Virus record (IMG/VR): IMGVR_UViG_3300020472_000183
Coordinates: 1-22,832 of that record
Length of the DNA: 22,832 bases
Source of the DNA: a virus
Strand: one strand, 5' to 3'
Shown here: piece by piece, positions 138 to 22,821 of the stretch
How positions within the stretch are numbered: position 1 is the stretch's first letter
Layout: the number at the start of each line of letters is the position of its first letter
Translations under genes and position numbers: made by a program
The notes under the pieces: model-generated
The model's database searches: none
Told to the model about the DNA's origin: nothing
Seen by the model: only the letters and a program-made list of their open reading frames with translations

Positions 138-773
138 ATGGCTAAAAAGATATACCCCGGTAACTGGGTCACAAACTTAAGTAGTTACCAAGGCCAGCCA
201 GTCGTGGCTTGCCCAGGTCGTGTTTATTACCACAAGGTTGGTTATGCATTAGTAACTTCTACAGGAGCTACTGAATTTGCAGTTACCATCCCTAGTCCTG
301 ATATGCGTGGCGACGACAAAGTTCGTGCCGACATCACAGGATTAACAATTCCATCAGGAGCAAACGTATACCACGTAGGTCTTCGTGTTCCTGATATGCG
401 TAAAGATCTTGGAGTTGGTACTGCCGCTTCTGGTCTAGTTGGTACTAACGGCGACACTATTGCAGTAAAAGATGCTGCTGCCTCAGCGGCTGCTACCATC
501 TCAACTACTGTTGTTTCCTCTCCAACTATTGCAGTTGCAAGTTTAACTATTGCACCAACATCTGGAAAGAAAGGAATCGTAACCGCAGCAGTTCTTGCAG
601 GAGCAGAGACTCTTAAGGTCTATGTTCGTAATGCAGCAGGTAATGGTACTGGAAGTGCTTTATCTTCTACACAAACTGGTGGTACACCAATCATCGTTGA
701 AGTTTCATACTTCATAGACGATGAGGTTGCTGGATTGGATGATACATACATCCCATTCATCACAGAGACCTAA
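138..773 (+). CDS. Probable virion structural protein (211 aa)
   Basis: A 211-residue protein rich in Ala, Thr, Val and Gly with alternating beta-strand-like segments, no signal peptide and no membrane segment. The N-terminus is MAKKIYPGNWVTNLSSYQG. The composition resembles small beta-rich virion proteins such as head-decoration or tail-tube subunits; I recognise no specific family. The strong Shine-Dalgarno at 122-129 and an intrinsic terminator just after the stop (799-827) fit a gene needed in many copies, as a major particle component would be. It is similar in composition, but not obviously in sequence, to the 178-residue protein at 3304-3840. The structural role is inferred from composition, expression signals and context. 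Confidence 0.7.
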   Translation: MAKKIYPGNWVTNLSSYQGQPVVACPGRVYYHKVGYALVTSTGATEFAVTIPSPDMRGDDKVRADITGLTIPSGANVYHVGLRVPDMRKDLGVGTAASGLVGTNGDTIAVKDAAASAAATISTTVVSSPTIAVASLTIAPTSGKKGIVTAAVLAGAETLKVYVRNAAGNGTGSALSSTQTGGTPIIVEVSYFIDDEVAGLDDTYIPFITET

Positions 774-798
774 ATTACTAGGTTTTCTCACTACAATA

Positions 799-827
799 AG
801 AGCATCTCTTACGGGGTGCTCTTTTTT
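799..827 (+). terminator. Intrinsic terminator after the first structural gene
   Basis: AGAGCATC (799-806) pairs with GGTGCTCT (815-822) with one G-T wobble across an 8-base loop, followed by a six-T run (822-827). The hairpin begins 25 bases after the stop at 773 and ends only 5 bases before the ATG of the next gene. Confidence 0.8.
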
Positions 828-832
828 AATTT

Positions 833-1261
833 ATGGCGTTATATCAAAATCAAAAAAACGGTCAGGTTGTCGAGTTCATTGGACATCACGACAAAGACTG
901 GGCAATGGTCAAGAATGCAGCAGGTGTAGTTCAATACGTCGCCTTGGAGGACTTAGTTTCATACGAAGCAAATAAAGGTCGAACAGGTCAGAAAGTTGAA
1001 CCCGTCATCATAGACGAGAAGGATGAAGATAAACTTCCTGAAGCCGTCATCCCTGCCGATACAAGACTGAATGTCAATGTTGCTACTGCTGAAGCATTAG
1101 CCAAGCAAGTTAAAGGTATTGGCTATGCCACTGCTAAGAAGATCATTGAATTGAGATTGTCTTTACCTGCAGAAAGGTTCTCGAAATTAGATCAACTTAA
1201 AAAGATCGCAAGAGTTGACTGGGAAGAGGTATTTAAAGAAGACCTTATCTACATTGCCTAG
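833..1261 (+). CDS. Helix-hairpin-helix protein (142 aa), probably virion-associated
   Basis: The N-terminal part (residues 1-48) is short-stranded and could be a small SH3-like barrel. An acidic linker follows (about 58-72). Residues 78-132 match a ComEA-like helix-hairpin-helix: the Asn-Val-Asn-Val-Ala-Thr-Ala lead, the hairpin GIG (95-97) followed by ATAKKI, then a second helix pair around FSKLDQLKKI. This fold usually binds DNA backbone without sequence specificity. In a virion cluster it might act in head completion, DNA ejection or packaging; that role is inference. The ATG at 833 has no Shine-Dalgarno and directly follows the terminator's T-run, so the message may be leaderless or come from read-through. 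Confidence 0.75.
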   Translation: MALYQNQKNGQVVEFIGHHDKDWAMVKNAAGVVQYVALEDLVSYEANKGRTGQKVEPVIIDEKDEDKLPEAVIPADTRLNVNVATAEALAKQVKGIGYATAKKIIELRLSLPAERFSKLDQLKKIARVDWEEVFKEDLIYIA

Positions 1262-1264
1262 AAT

Positions 1265-1282
1265 AAAGCGAAAGTCGCTTTT
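1265..1282 (+). terminator. Short hairpin between two genes, possible weak terminator
   Basis: AAAGCGA (1265-1271) and TCGCTTT (1275-1281) form a perfect 7-bp stem with a 3-base loop, followed by only a short T tract. It fills the 28-base gap between adjacent genes and may attenuate transcription or stabilise the 3' end. Confidence 0.4.
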
Positions 1283-1289
1283 ATAGAGA

Positions 1290-1775
1290 TTGGAGCTTAA
1301 CGACTACGACAAAAGCCGTACAAGGTTCCATCTTGGCTACAACACCGGAGCAAATTTGCCTGCCGGTGATATCGCTCGCTTAGAAGAAGCACTAGCTCGT
1401 GTTCCTGATAGTTATTTCTATGACAGGATCATTGAACATTTGAATCGTTGCGACAAGGCTTACAGATTATCTCAGGTATTTAAGTCTGAGACATCTCCAC
1501 AGCCAAATATGATTCAAAGAATCACAGGGGATACTGACAGGCAGATAATGCAGTCAGATCCTATTAAGGCTGATAAAACATATCGTGAAATCTATCTTCG
1601 TGAAGTCGATCGATTAGCTGAGACATTATATGTCGCTAATTACAGACGAGAGGAGGTAAGACGTTATGCATTTGATCGGTCTGGTGCTGAATTTATCATG
1701 GCGGTAAAAGGTCCAGCTGATACGGCGGTTGGAACAAGAGTTGCACAAGCCGTTGGATCACAAAACTGGAGGTAA
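1290..1775 (+). CDS. Conserved-looking phage protein (161 aa), TTG start
   Basis: No ATG is available: a stop lies in frame just upstream (1284-1286), and the first sensible codon is TTG at 1290, giving MELNDYDKSRTRFHLGYN. The protein is soluble, charged and largely helical. One segment (about 24-60) is rich in leucine and arginine around an RLEEALARVPDSYFYDRI stretch, and another near 100-130 contains YREIYLREVDRLAETLYV. It resembles short connector or neck-like proteins of cyanophage virion clusters as I recall them, but I cannot name a family. It is followed by a 6-base gap and a gene with a good Shine-Dalgarno (GGAGGTAA) that overlaps this gene's stop. Confidence 0.7.
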   Translation: MELNDYDKSRTRFHLGYNTGANLPAGDIARLEEALARVPDSYFYDRIIEHLNRCDKAYRLSQVFKSETSPQPNMIQRITGDTDRQIMQSDPIKADKTYREIYLREVDRLAETLYVANYRREEVRRYAFDRSGAEFIMAVKGPADTAVGTRVAQAVGSQNWR

Positions 1776-1781
1776 CTATTC

Positions 1782-2810
1782 ATGGGTAATAAAAATGTGA
1801 AGAGAAACATTAATCCAAATCCTTTTTGGCGGGCAGGCTTCTTGGGCCCTGATCAAACTAAACCTTTTGATTGGAATCAGAGAGGCTTGCAGAACGAGCA
1901 GGAGCCCAATCGGAATTTTGTAGACAATATTGCTAAGTATGGCCCTGGTGGAAATTTGACAGGGAGAGAAGAACTAGCACGGCAAAGACAGTTACTCAAA
2001 CTACAGAGACTTAAAGAAGAAGGCCATCCTTGGGCGATGAAGCCTGAAAACCAACAATATTACGATTCAGGTGTTGTCAATATCGAAGGTGCTAAAGCAA
2101 ATATAGGTAGCAGTTCATTTACTGGAGGTGGAGATCAATCTAGTGCACCAACAGTTAATCCTGGGGCTGACAGAGAAAGAAACCAGCAGTCGGACATGGC
2201 GGCAATGCTTCAGCAGTACGGAAAAGTTCCACTTGATCCTGCTGGTGGTGCAGTCATGGGCGCTGCTATAGGCTTAGGAGCTAGCGGTGGCAAGGCTTTA
2301 CCTACATTACTAGGTGCAGGTGCTGGGTATCTTTTAGCAAGAAGTAACAGCATTTTACTTCCCGGACAAAAACCTGAAGGAGAAAGTGAAGCATTTGATG
2401 CTAGTCAGGCTATAGATGGAACGGCTCCAGTTGAATCTCAAACAGAAGTAGTGTCACAAGAAAAGGCAGATATCTCAGGGATGTATCCAGGGGTTGATCA
2501 GCTAGGTGAAGGAGGAATGGCCTTTGCTCCCGGATTTACGAATGCAGCAGCCAACAGAAGCAATACGTTTGGACAGGATGTAACTACGTTATTAGCTCAA
2601 TCAGCAAAGACGACAGGAGATCAAGTGCAAGGTGGCAACATGCAACCACAAATTGGAACCGTTGCCGGAGTTGCCGGACTGGAGGTTCCTGCCCCTGGAG
2701 GACAACCTGGAAATGTTCCTAACCCAGCTGATGAATTGGTGGCATCATTCAGTAAAGGACGAGTACCTCAATACATATATCAAACTCTCGGCGGAGGATC
2801 TTTGGTATGA
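1782..2810 (+). CDS. Gly/Ala-rich putative internal virion protein (342 aa)
   Basis: The start is supported by GGAGGTAA about 8 bases before the ATG. The N-terminal third is polar, rich in N, Q, P and R, with a basic amphipathic helix at about 61-80. Residues 154-187 are a run of Gly and Ala with hydrophobic residues (GGAVMGAAIGLGASGG, then LPTLLGAGAGYLLA), which could insert in a membrane. The rest is low-complexity, acidic and Gln/Pro/Gly-rich. This arrangement suits an internal or ejected virion protein that touches a membrane during infection, but I recognise no family and the role is inferred. The stop overlaps the next ATG (ATGA at 2807-2810), indicating translational coupling. Confidence 0.65.
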   Translation: MGNKNVKRNINPNPFWRAGFLGPDQTKPFDWNQRGLQNEQEPNRNFVDNIAKYGPGGNLTGREELARQRQLLKLQRLKEEGHPWAMKPENQQYYDSGVVNIEGAKANIGSSSFTGGGDQSSAPTVNPGADRERNQQSDMAAMLQQYGKVPLDPAGGAVMGAAIGLGASGGKALPTLLGAGAGYLLARSNSILLPGQKPEGESEAFDASQAIDGTAPVESQTEVVSQEKADISGMYPGVDQLGEGGMAFAPGFTNAAANRSNTFGQDVTTLLAQSAKTTGDQVQGGNMQPQIGTVAGVAGLEVPAPGGQPGNVPNPADELVASFSKGRVPQYIYQTLGGGSLV

Positions 2811-3250
2811 CTAGATCTAGAAGACCCGAGCACATGAAATACAAAGAAGGTGCTAGGAGATCCTTCCGACCAAATGAGTGGTACGTCGACAAAAGGAGAG
2901 AACGAGAAGCTAATAATTTCTTGGCAGGTTCGAAAGGTGGAGTTCCTAACAATCCGGCGAATATAAGATCATTCGAGCCAATACCTGCGCCTATAGACCC
3001 TGCTAGATCAATGCAAGGTGATCAAGTCGTCAGAAGAAATCCATATGGTGACGGAGAGCAAATTATTGATGGTGAAAGAGCCTTATGGAGAAGGCCTAAT
3101 CAACGAGGTTCATCCTTTGATCCTCCTCCTGTTCCTGTCGAAAGAACTGGGAAAGTGAGACGACCAAATGATAAAAAAGCCAGAAAAGGAACGAGTACAT
3201 CGATTGGCCTTATGAATACTGGTCCTCTTAGAGATGTCTCACATTTTTAA
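2807..3250 (+). CDS. Basic, Arg/Pro-rich hypothetical protein (147 aa)
   Basis: The ATG overlaps the upstream stop (ATGA), and GGAGG at 2793-2797 is a plausible Shine-Dalgarno. The protein is strongly basic at both ends, with RSRRPEHMKYKEGARRSF near the start and KVRRPNDKKARKG near the end, and Pro-rich in between. It has no membrane segment or known domain. The composition suggests a disordered protein that may bind DNA or acidic partners inside the capsid; that is a guess. The gene is real with fair confidence because of the coupling and the absence of alternative frames. Confidence 0.6.
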   Translation: MTRSRRPEHMKYKEGARRSFRPNEWYVDKRREREANNFLAGSKGGVPNNPANIRSFEPIPAPIDPARSMQGDQVVRRNPYGDGEQIIDGERALWRRPNQRGSSFDPPPVPVERTGKVRRPNDKKARKGTSTSIGLMNTGPLRDVSHF

Positions 3251-3303
3251 TTTGAATTTTCAGTATTCAATTCTCAGTAAACTTTGTATAGATGGGTAAT
3301 TAA

Positions 3304-3840
3304 ATGGCAACGAGTAGTTCAAACAAAATGCCACTGTTGGTCGACAGGCCAATGCATTCTTTCGCGACGATTGGAGGAACTGCGGCATTAACAACAGCAA
3401 CAAATCTGAATACGCCTGGCACAGCCGGTTGTGTACTGCTTGTTGATTGTTCAGGAAACGACGGTGCTGTGGTAGATAGCTTATCTATCCTCGCCTTAGA
3501 AGCAAATACGACGGCAAGAGCTGTTCTAGCTTTCTTGAGTACAGCAACAACGGCTGCGAGTATAACGACTGCTAATACTGCATACGTAGCAGGAGCGACC
3601 ATTGGATCTACTGCAAAAGGTGACAGGACAAATGTTCCATTACCTGCTTTATCTGTTCCAGTACCGAATTTAGCGAGCCCAGCTGCAACAGTTAATTCAT
3701 ATCCCAACGAATTAGAGAAGAAGAATACAGGTTTATATATTCCTTCCGGTGCATTGCTTTATGTCGGAGTTGATCAGGCAATAGCAGCACCTAGTGCAAA
3801 TACCAGAGTTCATGTTTTTGCCCAAGGCGGATTCTTCTAA
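3304..3840 (+). CDS. Probable virion structural protein (178 aa)
   Basis: An Ala/Thr/Val-rich, beta-strand-like protein with no signal peptide or membrane segment, ending in HVFAQGGFF. It has the feel of a small head-decoration, tail-tube or fibre-base subunit and sits among other virion genes; the exact role is unknown. The ATG has no Shine-Dalgarno. A 53-base gap precedes it, containing a possible weak TATAGA element at 3287-3292 and a TTGAAT/ATTCAA hairpin at 3252-3270, too weak to annotate separately. Only three bases separate its stop from the next ATG. Confidence 0.65.
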   Translation: MATSSSNKMPLLVDRPMHSFATIGGTAALTTATNLNTPGTAGCVLLVDCSGNDGAVVDSLSILALEANTTARAVLAFLSTATTAASITTANTAYVAGATIGSTAKGDRTNVPLPALSVPVPNLASPAATVNSYPNELEKKNTGLYIPSGALLYVGVDQAIAAPSANTRVHVFAQGGFF

Positions 3841-16498: not shown

Positions 16499-17269
16499 AT
16501 GAATGAAGTAGATAAAATACTGGCCGCGCTGGATTCATTAATGCAATCCAAAGGTGCGGGTGAAGGAATCATAAGAGCGGCTCAACTTGGAGATGTGACA
16601 GCAAGAAGTTTGGTGAGTAAAGCAGCTAGAGATATAGATAAGTTGCAGGAGATGACTGGGCCAAAAATGTATCAAGCAATTGAGCAGGCCGAGATCCAAG
16701 CACTGGCAGATCGAGCAGGGGTCAGTGCAGAGGAAATGCAGGGAAGAATTAACACTGATGATGTAACTCCTAAAAAAGTTAATCAATTAACCAAGGAAGA
16801 GTTCTATCAAAAATTTCCCAATCAGGCAGTATCTGACAAAGAACTTTTCCTGTCAAATATTCTCAAAGATTCAAAGGGTGCAGGAAAAACAGTTGATGAA
16901 GTATTTGATAATGCTTTTATACACGGAGTAAAAAAGCTTGGGCTCAGTCAGGAAGAAGCAAAGACTTACGCTAGTGGAATTATTGGAAAGATTACGACCC
17001 CTGAACAACACACTCCAGCCGGTCCAGAATTGCTAGCTAAGTTAAATCAAATCGAAAAGACTGCACCTACTCCTGTGTCTAAAGGTGGCGTAAAAATGGC
17101 AGGAAAATATGCAAAATATATCGTACCTTTACTGGGCGGTACTAGTGGTTTGTATCTATTAGCAGATGCTTTAAGTGATAGTGAAGCAGAGCGAATGCCA
17201 TCTCCAGTTAATGAAGATGAGGCAGCAAAATTAGCTGCTGCTGAATTATTAGCACAAGCCGTAAGTTAA
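16499..17269 (+). CDS. Helical protein with one membrane segment (256 aa)
   Basis: Mostly alpha-helical and soluble through residue 200, with long charged helices (about 1-82 and 130-165). One probable membrane segment lies at 205-224 (AKYIVPLLGGTSGLYLLADA), followed by an acidic Ala-rich tail. A long cytosolic or internal part with a single C-terminal membrane anchor fits an internal virion or ejection protein, or a lysis accessory, but no family is recognised. The start ATG is one base after the upstream stop and lacks a Shine-Dalgarno. A short Lys-rich gene follows directly. Confidence 0.6.
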   Translation: MNEVDKILAALDSLMQSKGAGEGIIRAAQLGDVTARSLVSKAARDIDKLQEMTGPKMYQAIEQAEIQALADRAGVSAEEMQGRINTDDVTPKKVNQLTKEEFYQKFPNQAVSDKELFLSNILKDSKGAGKTVDEVFDNAFIHGVKKLGLSQEEAKTYASGIIGKITTPEQHTPAGPELLAKLNQIEKTAPTPVSKGGVKMAGKYAKYIVPLLGGTSGLYLLADALSDSEAERMPSPVNEDEAAKLAAAELLAQAVS

Positions 17270-17576: not shown

Positions 17577-17695
17577 AATAAGTTAAACTTCGGACTATGC
17601 ATCCGATGAATTGTTACAGTCTCAGTTTGGCCCACTTTCGCGGCCCAGTCGTTTTTCGTGGCGAGTGGTGGACTGGGTTCTTGCCCTGCAACCAT

Positions 17696-17744
17696 AGGGC
17701 TCATAACCCGAAGGTCGGAAGTTCAAATCTTCCCCCCGCCACCA
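17696..17744 (+). other. attP core: 3' half of initiator tRNA-fMet
   Basis: The sequence holds a tRNA anticodon arm with the initiator-specific three G-C pairs (GGG CTCATAA CCC, anticodon CAT at 17702-17704), a variable loop AGGTC, a perfect T arm (GGAAG TTCAAAT CTTCC), the acceptor 3' strand CCCCGCC, discriminator A and CCA at 17742-17744. The 5' half does not fold properly: a forced acceptor (from about 17667) mismatches and the D loop lacks the usual GG. A 3' tRNA half just upstream of an integrase is the classic signature of attP (or one end of a prophage). The 49-base identity to tRNA-fMet is by recall. Confidence 0.8.
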
Positions 17745-17751
17745 ATTATTA

Positions 17752-17777
17752 AGTCCAGTTAGCTACTGGGCTTTTTT
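17752..17777 (+). terminator. Terminator directly after the tRNA half
   Basis: AGTCCAGT (17752-17759) pairs with ACTGGGCT (17765-17772) with one G-T wobble around a 5-base loop, followed by six T's. It starts only 8 bases after the tRNA CCA. After integration it would sit downstream of the rebuilt host tRNA and upstream of the integrase. Confidence 0.8.
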
Positions 17778-17960
17778 AGTGCTATAAAGGGATCTGAAGG
17801 AATATTTTATGTAAATGGATCAAAGCCTTCATGAGTTCAGATCGTTCTTATTGGGACTTTTTCGGCCCACTTTTTGCAAGAAACTGGGCCGTCTGCCCAC
17901 TAATTGCCCAGATTTTGGCCCAGTCCGTAGGGTTCGTTTTGTAAAACTGGGCCGCGTGAT

Positions 17961-21063: not shown

Positions 21064-21588
21064 ATGAAACGGTTCGCTGTTTTAATTGGGTTGCTGTCGA
21101 TATGTGGACCGGCTAATTCCGAAGTTCACCATCGGATTCAATCAAGTATTCAATTAACTGTCGATGGGGCTAGTACAGTCTCGAAACGTATTCCATCGAC
21201 AATATCGGTAAGTGGAAGCAATATCGCTGTGGGGAGTGGAAATAATGATACATTTTCAGGTTTGACCGCAGGCTCAGCAACGGCCAGTCCGACAGGGGTT
21301 ATGGGAAATTTTGGAATTCACACTGCTGGCCAGAGTTTCAGTTTCAGTAATTCGTACCTACAGGGCGACCCTATAGCTACCTTGAACTCAGGTAATACTG
21401 TATCGACTACGACGGGGCAAGTTCAATCCTTACCTTCTTACGGAGACACCACAGTATTTGCAGGCGGAACCAAGGGAACTTTGGCTGGAACGTTGACTTC
21501 AGCAGGGGGTGGAACTTTGACGATAACCGGCGGAGCGAGTGGTACTACGGCTATTGGACAGCATACGCAAGAGATAACAATACGCTAG
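21064..21588 (+). CDS. Secreted cyanophage-type protein 1 (174 aa)
   Basis: The N-terminus MKRFAVLIGLLSICGPANS is a typical signal peptide with likely cleavage before Glu20. The mature part is Gly/Ser/Thr-rich and beta-strand-like, beginning HHRIQSSIQLTVDGASTVSK. It is the first of three exported proteins in a row. I recall a similar trio in T4-like cyanophages; the function is unknown there too as far as I know. A GGGGAG stretch lies about 16 bases upstream, too far for a normal Shine-Dalgarno. It may be exported to the host envelope or periplasm, or be a virion part; neither is shown here. Confidence 0.7.
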   Translation: MKRFAVLIGLLSICGPANSEVHHRIQSSIQLTVDGASTVSKRIPSTISVSGSNIAVGSGNNDTFSGLTAGSATASPTGVMGNFGIHTAGQSFSFSNSYLQGDPIATLNSGNTVSTTTGQVQSLPSYGDTTVFAGGTKGTLAGTLTSAGGGTLTITGGASGTTAIGQHTQEITIR

Positions 21589-21589
21589 G

Positions 21590-22030
21590 ATGAAACGCCT
21601 AGTTGGGCTAATATTTTTATTACTTAGCTGGGCAGATCCCAGTCATAGCGTGCCTGTGGTGCCAAATTATACATCTGGAAAATTAGATAGCACTACAACT
21701 CAGCGGCAGGTTATCTCGGAGGTCATCGTGTCAGAAGACTACAATTCAGGATTTGTGTATAGCGTTTCTGGTACAGGAATACAACCGAGTACAGGTCACA
21801 TAAATGCAACAGGTTTAAGTACAATTAGTCATACGACGACTTCAGGTGGTACGTCCACATGGACAGGGTTAGATTTAGACACGGCTCCAAACTGGTCACT
21901 AACAACGCCAGGCGGAACCTTTACAATGACACAGAGTTACCAAGGGCCAGGACTTCGGAACCGCACCACCATAACGAGATCACAAGAAATCGAAACGACG
22001 ATAGTCAGTTCAAGCGTATTCAGTCAGTAG
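21590..22030 (+). CDS. Secreted cyanophage-type protein 2 (146 aa)
   Basis: Starts one base after the previous stop. MKRLVGLIFLLLSWADPSHS is a signal peptide with cleavage near Ser20. The mature part is strand-rich with Thr/Ser/Gly (YTSGKLDSTTTQRQVISEVI near the start) and ends TTIVSSSVFSQ. It is close in composition to protein 1 but not a clear duplicate. It is the middle member of the secreted trio. The following gene overlaps its 3' end in another frame, so the real junction between the two needs care. Confidence 0.7.
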   Translation: MKRLVGLIFLLLSWADPSHSVPVVPNYTSGKLDSTTTQRQVISEVIVSEDYNSGFVYSVSGTGIQPSTGHINATGLSTISHTTTSGGTSTWTGLDLDTAPNWSLTTPGGTFTMTQSYQGPGLRNRTTITRSQEIETTIVSSSVFSQ

Positions 22031-22821
22031 CTGCAGGACTTCTCGGTATATTCTTATTCCCAATAAATGTATTAGCAGATGTAGGTGGCGTGTCTGCTAC
22101 CTCTAATCCTGTCGCTAATAGTTCAGGGTCAGCAACTGTGAACGCATATCAAGTGTTGACTGGAAATTTTATTAACTCAACGTTTGGTCGAAATGGCGTT
22201 GTATGCCAAGCAGAGACGATGACATTATCTCCATACGTTGGATTAAGCCATAATATAAAACGACCATTCGAAAGTTCATACCCGGAAAATGTTTACGATA
22301 TGAGGGATATTGATGGTGACGGTGCCCCAGATAATCCAGGGAGCGTGCTGTTTCAGAAAGAGGTATTAACTCAGCAGAAGGATAATCACGGGTTAAATTA
22401 TGGCCTAACGATTCAGTGGTCTAGGCCACTAGATTCAAAGCTACAATCACTGTGCAAAGAAGCAGCCAGTAAAGAGATTGCATTTCGTCAAGCAGAATTA
22501 AATCTAAAAGTTCTGGACTACGAAATTTCACGACTCAAGCACTGCGGTACCTTGAAAAAGGCTGGGATAACCTATTCTAAGACCTCACAATATGCCTCAG
22601 TTTGTGGCGATATTGAGATTGCTGAAAGTCCTTTTTCTGTCCCGGACCATACCCATAAAATCAATCTTAAAAAAGTAGAAGCCAAAGAAGGGTCAGAAAA
22701 AAAACAAGTAAACAACAAAGATAAAGGACAACAAACCAACGCATCTACTTCTTCAGACTCTTCTGCTCTGCTCGGCGTTCACGAACTGAAAGCACCTTGG
22801 GCTTCTTCCCTAGACGACTAA
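21859..22821 (+). CDS. Secreted cyanophage-type protein 3, start uncertain
   Basis: A hydrophobic signal-like segment (AAGLLGIFLFPINVLA) is followed by a mature start at DVGGVSATSNPVANSSGSAT, then four cysteines, helical parts (KEAASKEIAFRQAELNLKVL) and a Lys/Asn/Ser-rich low-complexity tail. The only conventional start is ATG 21859, which overlaps gene 2 by 172 bases and adds 54 out-of-place basic residues before the signal segment. More natural starts are ATC 21979 or ATT 22018. It is the last of the secreted trio and, by recall, similar to a T4-like cyanophage protein. An A8 run near the 3' end could affect the frame. Confidence 0.65.
   Translation: MDRVRFRHGSKLVTNNARRNLYNDTELPRARTSEPHHHNEITRNRNDDSQFKRIQSVAAGLLGIFLFPINVLADVGGVSATSNPVANSSGSATVNAYQVLTGNFINSTFGRNGVVCQAETMTLSPYVGLSHNIKRPFESSYPENVYDMRDIDGDGAPDNPGSVLFQKEVLTQQKDNHGLNYGLTIQWSRPLDSKLQSLCKEAASKEIAFRQAELNLKVLDYEISRLKHCGTLKKAGITYSKTSQYASVCGDIEIAESPFSVPDHTHKINLKKVEAKEGSEKKQVNNKDKGQQTNASTSSDSSALLGVHELKAPWASSLDD

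Follow-up and report, generated by a model that had tools for sequence, protein, structure and literature searches.

A putative attP with eight arm-type sites around an initiator tRNA-Met core in a marine cyanophage fragment

Eight short repeats in a marine cyanobacterial virus are very probably the docking sites of an integrase that inserts the virus into the initiator tRNA-Met gene of its host. They lie in the window, a phage fragment of 22,832 bases taken from IMG/VR. From its sequence and those of its relatives, we conclude with high confidence that a temperate cyanophage has its attP here, where a heterobivalent tyrosine integrase would act on eight arm sites together with an anticodon core (Table 1).

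Table 1. Proposed parts of the integration module, in window coordinates. Distances are counted from the anticodon.
Feature	Sequence	Coordinates	Strand	Distance	Remarks
P-arm site 1	GGCCCACT	17629–17636	+	~-74	
P-arm site 2	GGCCCAGT	17642–17649	+	~-61	
Left accessory element, weak in the window	AGTGGTGGACTGGGTTCT	17664–17681	+		12/18
Core, anticodon stem-loop of initiator tRNA-Met	GGGCTCATAACCC (GGG-CTCATAA-CCC)	17697–17709	+		From the sequence, the L023 phage/host comparison and the relatives' alignment
Seven-base anticodon loop, probable strand-exchange region		17700–17706			
3′ half of tRNA-Met(CAT)		17697–17744	+		
Phage-carried tRNA terminator		17751–17777	+		Accounts for AGCCCAGT at 17765
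Right accessory element	AGTGCTATAAAGGGATCT	17778–17795	+		Conserved regardless of arm word
P′-arm site 1	GGCCCACT	17864–17871	+	~+161	
P′-arm site 2	GGCCCAGT, inverted	17883–17890	-	~+180	
P′-arm site 3	TGCCCACT	17894–17901	+	~+191	GGCCCACT in L017
P′-arm site 4	TGCCCAGA	17905–17912	+	~+202	Degenerate; L018 and L076 use the corresponding positions
P′-arm site 5	GGCCCAGT	17917–17924	+	~+214	
P′-arm site 6	GGCCCAGT, inverted	17946–17953	-	~+243	Ends 8 bp before the int start codon
Tyrosine integrase, 445 aa		17961–19298	+		Active-site residues, fold, predicted domains
Candidate excisionase, 78-aa winged helix-turn-helix		19999–20235	-		Convergent to int, conserved in most relatives

Clustering of the repeats

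Six exact GGCCCA(C/G)T octamers were found (P-arm sites 1 and 2 and P′-arm sites 1, 2, 5 and 6). Two degenerate copies with one or two mismatches (P′-arm sites 3 and 4) bring the total to two on the left and six on the right of the tRNA half, in both orientations, as the preliminary description had read them; P′-arm site 3 becomes perfect in a 95%-identical relative. The surrounding GC content (~0.39–0.42) agrees with the motifs having been described as lying in AT-rich DNA. That they cluster only here had to be qualified: no shuffle placed more than two octamers in any 325 bp (300 dinucleotide shuffles of the entire window; mean octamer total 0.67, maximum 4), but the other 22.5 kb of the window holds one perfect octamer, at 16655 on the minus strand, within an ORF. 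The window-wide count nevertheless bore out the enrichment, six or more octamers having a Poisson P of ~1e-14 at the background rate, for a motif picked after the region was seen. When the window was scanned without a preset motif, for the most repeated 6-mer per 330-bp stretch, the scan led to 17631–17641 and CTGGGC, in six copies. A one-mismatch copy at 17765 on the minus strand was rejected as an arm site, since it is the tRNA terminator stem and is kept in relatives with differing arm words.

Arm words of the relatives

Relatives were gathered from viral and genome contigs; several share descent, so that the tests described here are not all independent. One contig, L024, was binned in a MAG labelled Euryarchaeota and is probably a misassigned phage contig. 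When the attP regions of related integrases (28–63% identical) were compared, the layout was kept at nearly equal distances from the core but other words were used: GGCCCCGT (L018), TGTACACT (L024), TGTCCAGT (L026), TTGTCCG (L025), ATTCCCC (L076), TTTTGAC (L077), ATGTGAA (L078), AGGTAAA (L082) and ATCAACA (L028). In the ~370 bp preceding int, every lineage tested had 4–8 copies of its own word, and the words of the others were nearly absent; a single GCCCCG in L017 was the exception to this diagonal pattern.

A word shared between the left and right arms was significant by shuffling (p ≤0.0015) in the window (2 + 6 sites, p 0.0005), L017, L024, L025, L026, L028, L076, L077, L078 and L082, and L018 had a shared 6-mer (p 0.0005). 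L081 showed no significant word common to both arms in this test, and the repeats of P-SS2 were marginal (p ~0.03).

In the closer relatives, the sites stood at nearly constant distances from the anticodon, at ~-85, -75 and -61 on the left and at ~+162, +175/180, +192, +203, +215 and +241 on the right, with the zero points of the two distance scripts being one base apart. The sites that fell no more than 3 bp from one of the window's numbered seven of eight in L018 and in L076, six of eight in L024 and in L026, and five of seven in L025 (p 0.0001–0.0075). L076, with an integrase 36% identical to that of the window, repeats all eight window sites, strands included. From L024 to its close relative L026, motif position 4 has changed from A to C, and has done so in every one of the eight sites. 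The distant members L028, L077 and L078 have 2 + 2 sites, from which we infer one site per protomer of a tetramer.

Such lineage-specific words at fixed distances are expected of arm-type integrase sites, and are hard to explain otherwise. Two other origins were nevertheless weighed. Inverted copies of the motif can pair, and a scan called weak terminator-like stems at some of them; a reading of these pairs as RNA hairpins or terminators is hardly credible, however, as the main sites of L024, L025 and L026 are all on one strand, where such hairpins cannot form, and still keep their positions. The real terminator, moreover, is the one carried with the tRNA half (Table 1). The repeats could also be operators of a repressor or an excisionase controlling the int promoter rather than arm sites, for the right-hand sites lie immediately upstream of int (the last one overlaps the start codon in L025 and L026) and a 42-kb relative encodes a CI-like regulator. 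We consider this improbable. The same word occurs beyond the core as well, ~60–85 bp to the left of the anticodon, where more than 300 bp separate it from int and its distances are again conserved, and repression of an integrase gene through arm sites, as described for KplE1 IntS (PMC2951348), is compatible with the repeats being arm sites of an attP.

Across the lineages, the integrase appears to change in step with its DNA address. One possible reason, which we put forward tentatively, is that the arm words are private addresses under diversifying selection among phages competing for one initiator-tRNA attB. The intasome geometry would stay fixed, and the N-terminal domain would switch together with all four to eight sites, barring a rival's integrase from acting at the attachment sites of the phage. 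In nearly every integrase pair, conservation is lower in the N-terminal domain than in the catalytic one, and the divergence of the former alone is hence weak evidence of matched specificity.

The adjoining integrase

The preliminary description had called the integrase uncharacterised. Indeed, the product of the adjoining ORF was recognised by no HMM library and received no integrase assignment from Pfam, PHROGs, NCBIfam or PDB sequences. When examined for the R-K-HxxR-(H/W)-Y residues, however, R226, K249, R385, H413 and Y422 were invariant in nine relatives, with the usual spacing. The corresponding boxes read YGLRNHE, TKS, PYDLRHTW and MGH...Y, and the box-II histidine position is occupied by Tyr382. 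Profile comparison with the annotated P-SS2 integrase gave an hhalign probability of 98.8, at 28% identity over the alignment.

An earlier structure prediction with three sequences was poor. An AlphaFold model built from nine relatives reached a moderate pLDDT of 71.6, and its predicted domains are an N-terminal arm-binding domain (~1–70), a helical core-binding domain (~82–184) and, less certainly, a catalytic domain, which carries the five active-site residues. The first of these is predicted as a three-stranded sheet (19–22, 29–34, 41–48) and a helix (52–65), with pLDDT ~75–91. All of the top 40 fold matches were enzymes of the tyrosine-recombinase fold, including lambda Int (1z1g, the top match), XerA, Cre and the telomere resolvase TelA; the best E was 0.006, for a model of moderate quality. 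Its active-site boxes, the profile comparison and the fold ranking identify the protein as a tyrosine integrase, with a predicted lambda-like N-terminal arm-binding domain. Scanning for sigma-70 promoters gave no hit close to int.

Two of the eight sites are imperfect, and some host copies, such as L023, carry degenerate repeats, as might a decayed or non-functional attP remnant. We regard that as very unlikely, since the integrase ORF is intact and recurs at 95% identity in other contigs, where the sites occupy the same positions.

Core and host locus

Initiator tRNAs are marked by three G-C pairs in the anticodon stem and by an unpaired first base. By the G-C stem pairs, and by the unpaired first base as read in L023, the core tRNA is assigned as a cyanobacterial initiator tRNA-Met. 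The phages carry this tRNA from the anticodon to CCA, and phage and host match from the core across the 3′ half of the tRNA and on through a terminator. The Prochlorococcus single-cell contig L023 has a complete tRNA-Met beside an asparaginase gene, and this tRNA-Met is followed by the gene of a related integrase, joined to it. The P-SS2 paper already proposes the tRNA-Met/asparaginase locus as the integration site of that phage (PMC2784084). Five more Cyanobiaceae integrases (L036–L040) are located at the same tRNA-Met, and that of L043 at another tRNA-Met. In the integrated Cyanobiaceae genomes examined, a search for attR found none.

ARAGORN reported no tRNA in the window. Rfam gave a weak whole-tRNA match (17667–17741, 31.5 bits), which arises because phage DNA to the left of the core is able to pair with the 3′ strand of the acceptor. 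A working phage tRNA at this position was rejected, as most relatives do not keep its 5′ part. Likewise rejected was tRNA-dependent lysogeny (PMC10865867), as L023 rebuilds the full tRNA.

The core of L078 and L082, TTCATAACCCCAAGG, matches a different tRNA-Met; to judge from it, the integrase family may target two tRNA-Met genes. In L028, which has just 2 + 2 arm sites, a second core-like sequence (TCATAACCC, at ~433) stands directly before int.

Accessory elements and candidate excisionase

The element AGTSMTAYMAAGGGATYT occurs as a direct repeat at ~-37 and +76 in most relatives, regardless of the arm word. Its scores were 16–18 of 18 in the best cases, compared with 10–13 typical by chance, for a consensus derived from the same sequences. 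The left element scored 18/18 in L024, L025 and L026, at the same distance as the weak copy of the window. The repeated element may be bound by a host bending protein or by the excisionase.

Most relatives, and P-SS2 too, have a gene for a 78-aa winged-helix protein that lies convergent to int. The protein is homologous to another with a sub-threshold match to the DUF1233 excisionase family, and is a likely candidate for the excisionase. The P-SS2 paper took the excisionase of that phage to be host-encoded; the role could belong to the counterpart in P-SS2 itself, ACT65662.1 (annotated as hypothetical).

Phage context

Proteins that the phage has in common with T4-like cyanophages (phrog_564, 650 and 848; S-RSM4, S-RIM8, S-WAM2) are encoded at 21064–22821, beside the tRNA-targeting integrase. 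The early window genes tested (138–3840) had no PHROG match. In the 42-kb relative, L066, the CI-like transcriptional regulator is at 2868–3719 on the minus strand, and helicase/primase, dCMP deaminase and exonuclease genes are also present. This gene content supports a temperate phage.

Proposed mechanism

The sites, the core, the integrase gene, the attL-like junction, the fixed layout and the switching words are all present in the sequences compared, and may be put together as follows. The small N-terminal domain of the integrase would bind the eight GGCCCA(C/G)T-type sites, and the core-binding and catalytic domains would work on the anticodon stem-loop with which the tRNA-Met 3′ half begins. 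Bending of the DNA, probably aided by a host factor, would gather the two left and six right sites onto one integrase tetramer. In the host initiator tRNA-Met gene, this tetramer would exchange strands within the anticodon loop of seven bases. At attL, the 3′ half and terminator brought by the phage would rebuild the tRNA. The P′ sites would remain just upstream of int after integration, and through them the integrase could repress its own gene. The convergent winged-helix protein, as the likely excisionase, would switch the direction of the reaction. Each lineage has an arm word of its own, which apparently changes at every site along with the N-terminal domain of the integrase. Bridging of arms and core by the integrase is proposed by analogy with lambda, and autorepression by analogy with KplE1, where the tRNA-associated integrase IntS has arm sites overlapping its own promoter and represses itself through them (PMC2951348).

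Among the relatives, nature provides at least nine arm codes on a single geometric scaffold. Two questions are thereby opened to testing: how DNA is read by the N-terminal domain of the integrase, and how as many as eight sites can change jointly without loss of function. A complete integration module is described for the little-known temperate phages of marine picocyanobacteria, and a candidate is offered for the excisionase that P-SS2 was thought to lack. The integrases are potentially orthogonal tools for cyanobacterial genetics.

Comparison with known systems

A lambda-style attP, as first suggested from the repeats, is supported by the neighbouring tyrosine integrase, the core in a tRNA anticodon loop and the relatives' own words flanking the same core. 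A core and arm sites on both sides are present. The claim of a full lambda-style architecture needs two refinements: the P′ spacing is not that of lambda, and accessory bending-protein sites are only suggested. The attP and Int of lambda likewise have a core with arm sites on both sides, an N-terminal arm-binding domain (predicted here) and a tyrosine active site. The lambda P′ sites are much closer to the core. Here, up to six P′ sites lie ~160–245 bp away, because the tRNA 3′ half and the terminator intervene. Also unlike lambda, int reads away from attP, the sites reach its start codon, and no IHF sites were recognised.

The putative attP of P-SS2 at tRNA-Met/ansA resembles that of the window in its host tRNA, in its position just upstream of int, in a distantly homologous integrase and in the convergent small winged-helix gene. 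It differs in its arm word and weaker repeats, and the available part of the paper describes neither arm sites nor an excisionase (PMC2784084). No description of cyanophage arm sites was found in the open-licence literature. A family of divergent tyrosine integrases of Prochlorococcus and Synechococcus, also beside a tRNA and modelled on lambda Int, differs in being reported at tRNA-Phe or tRNA-Cys, in islands (PMC10187409).

In cluster K mycobacteriophages, attP is also 5′ of int, with multiple arm sites on the left and right and a stem-loop between the core and P3, and phages sharing attB have different arm sequences (PMC3203893). Fewer lineages were compared there, with no fixed ruler over many words, and the targets are tmRNA or other tRNAs. 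The principle of differing arm codes is therefore not new, as those phages had already shown it. Judged by its sequence, the attP of the window is of the known lambda type, but its P′ sites are unusually far away and its arm code switches rapidly. New in detail are how many codes share one conserved ruler, the six-site P′ array at its long distance, and an integrase that goes unrecognised.
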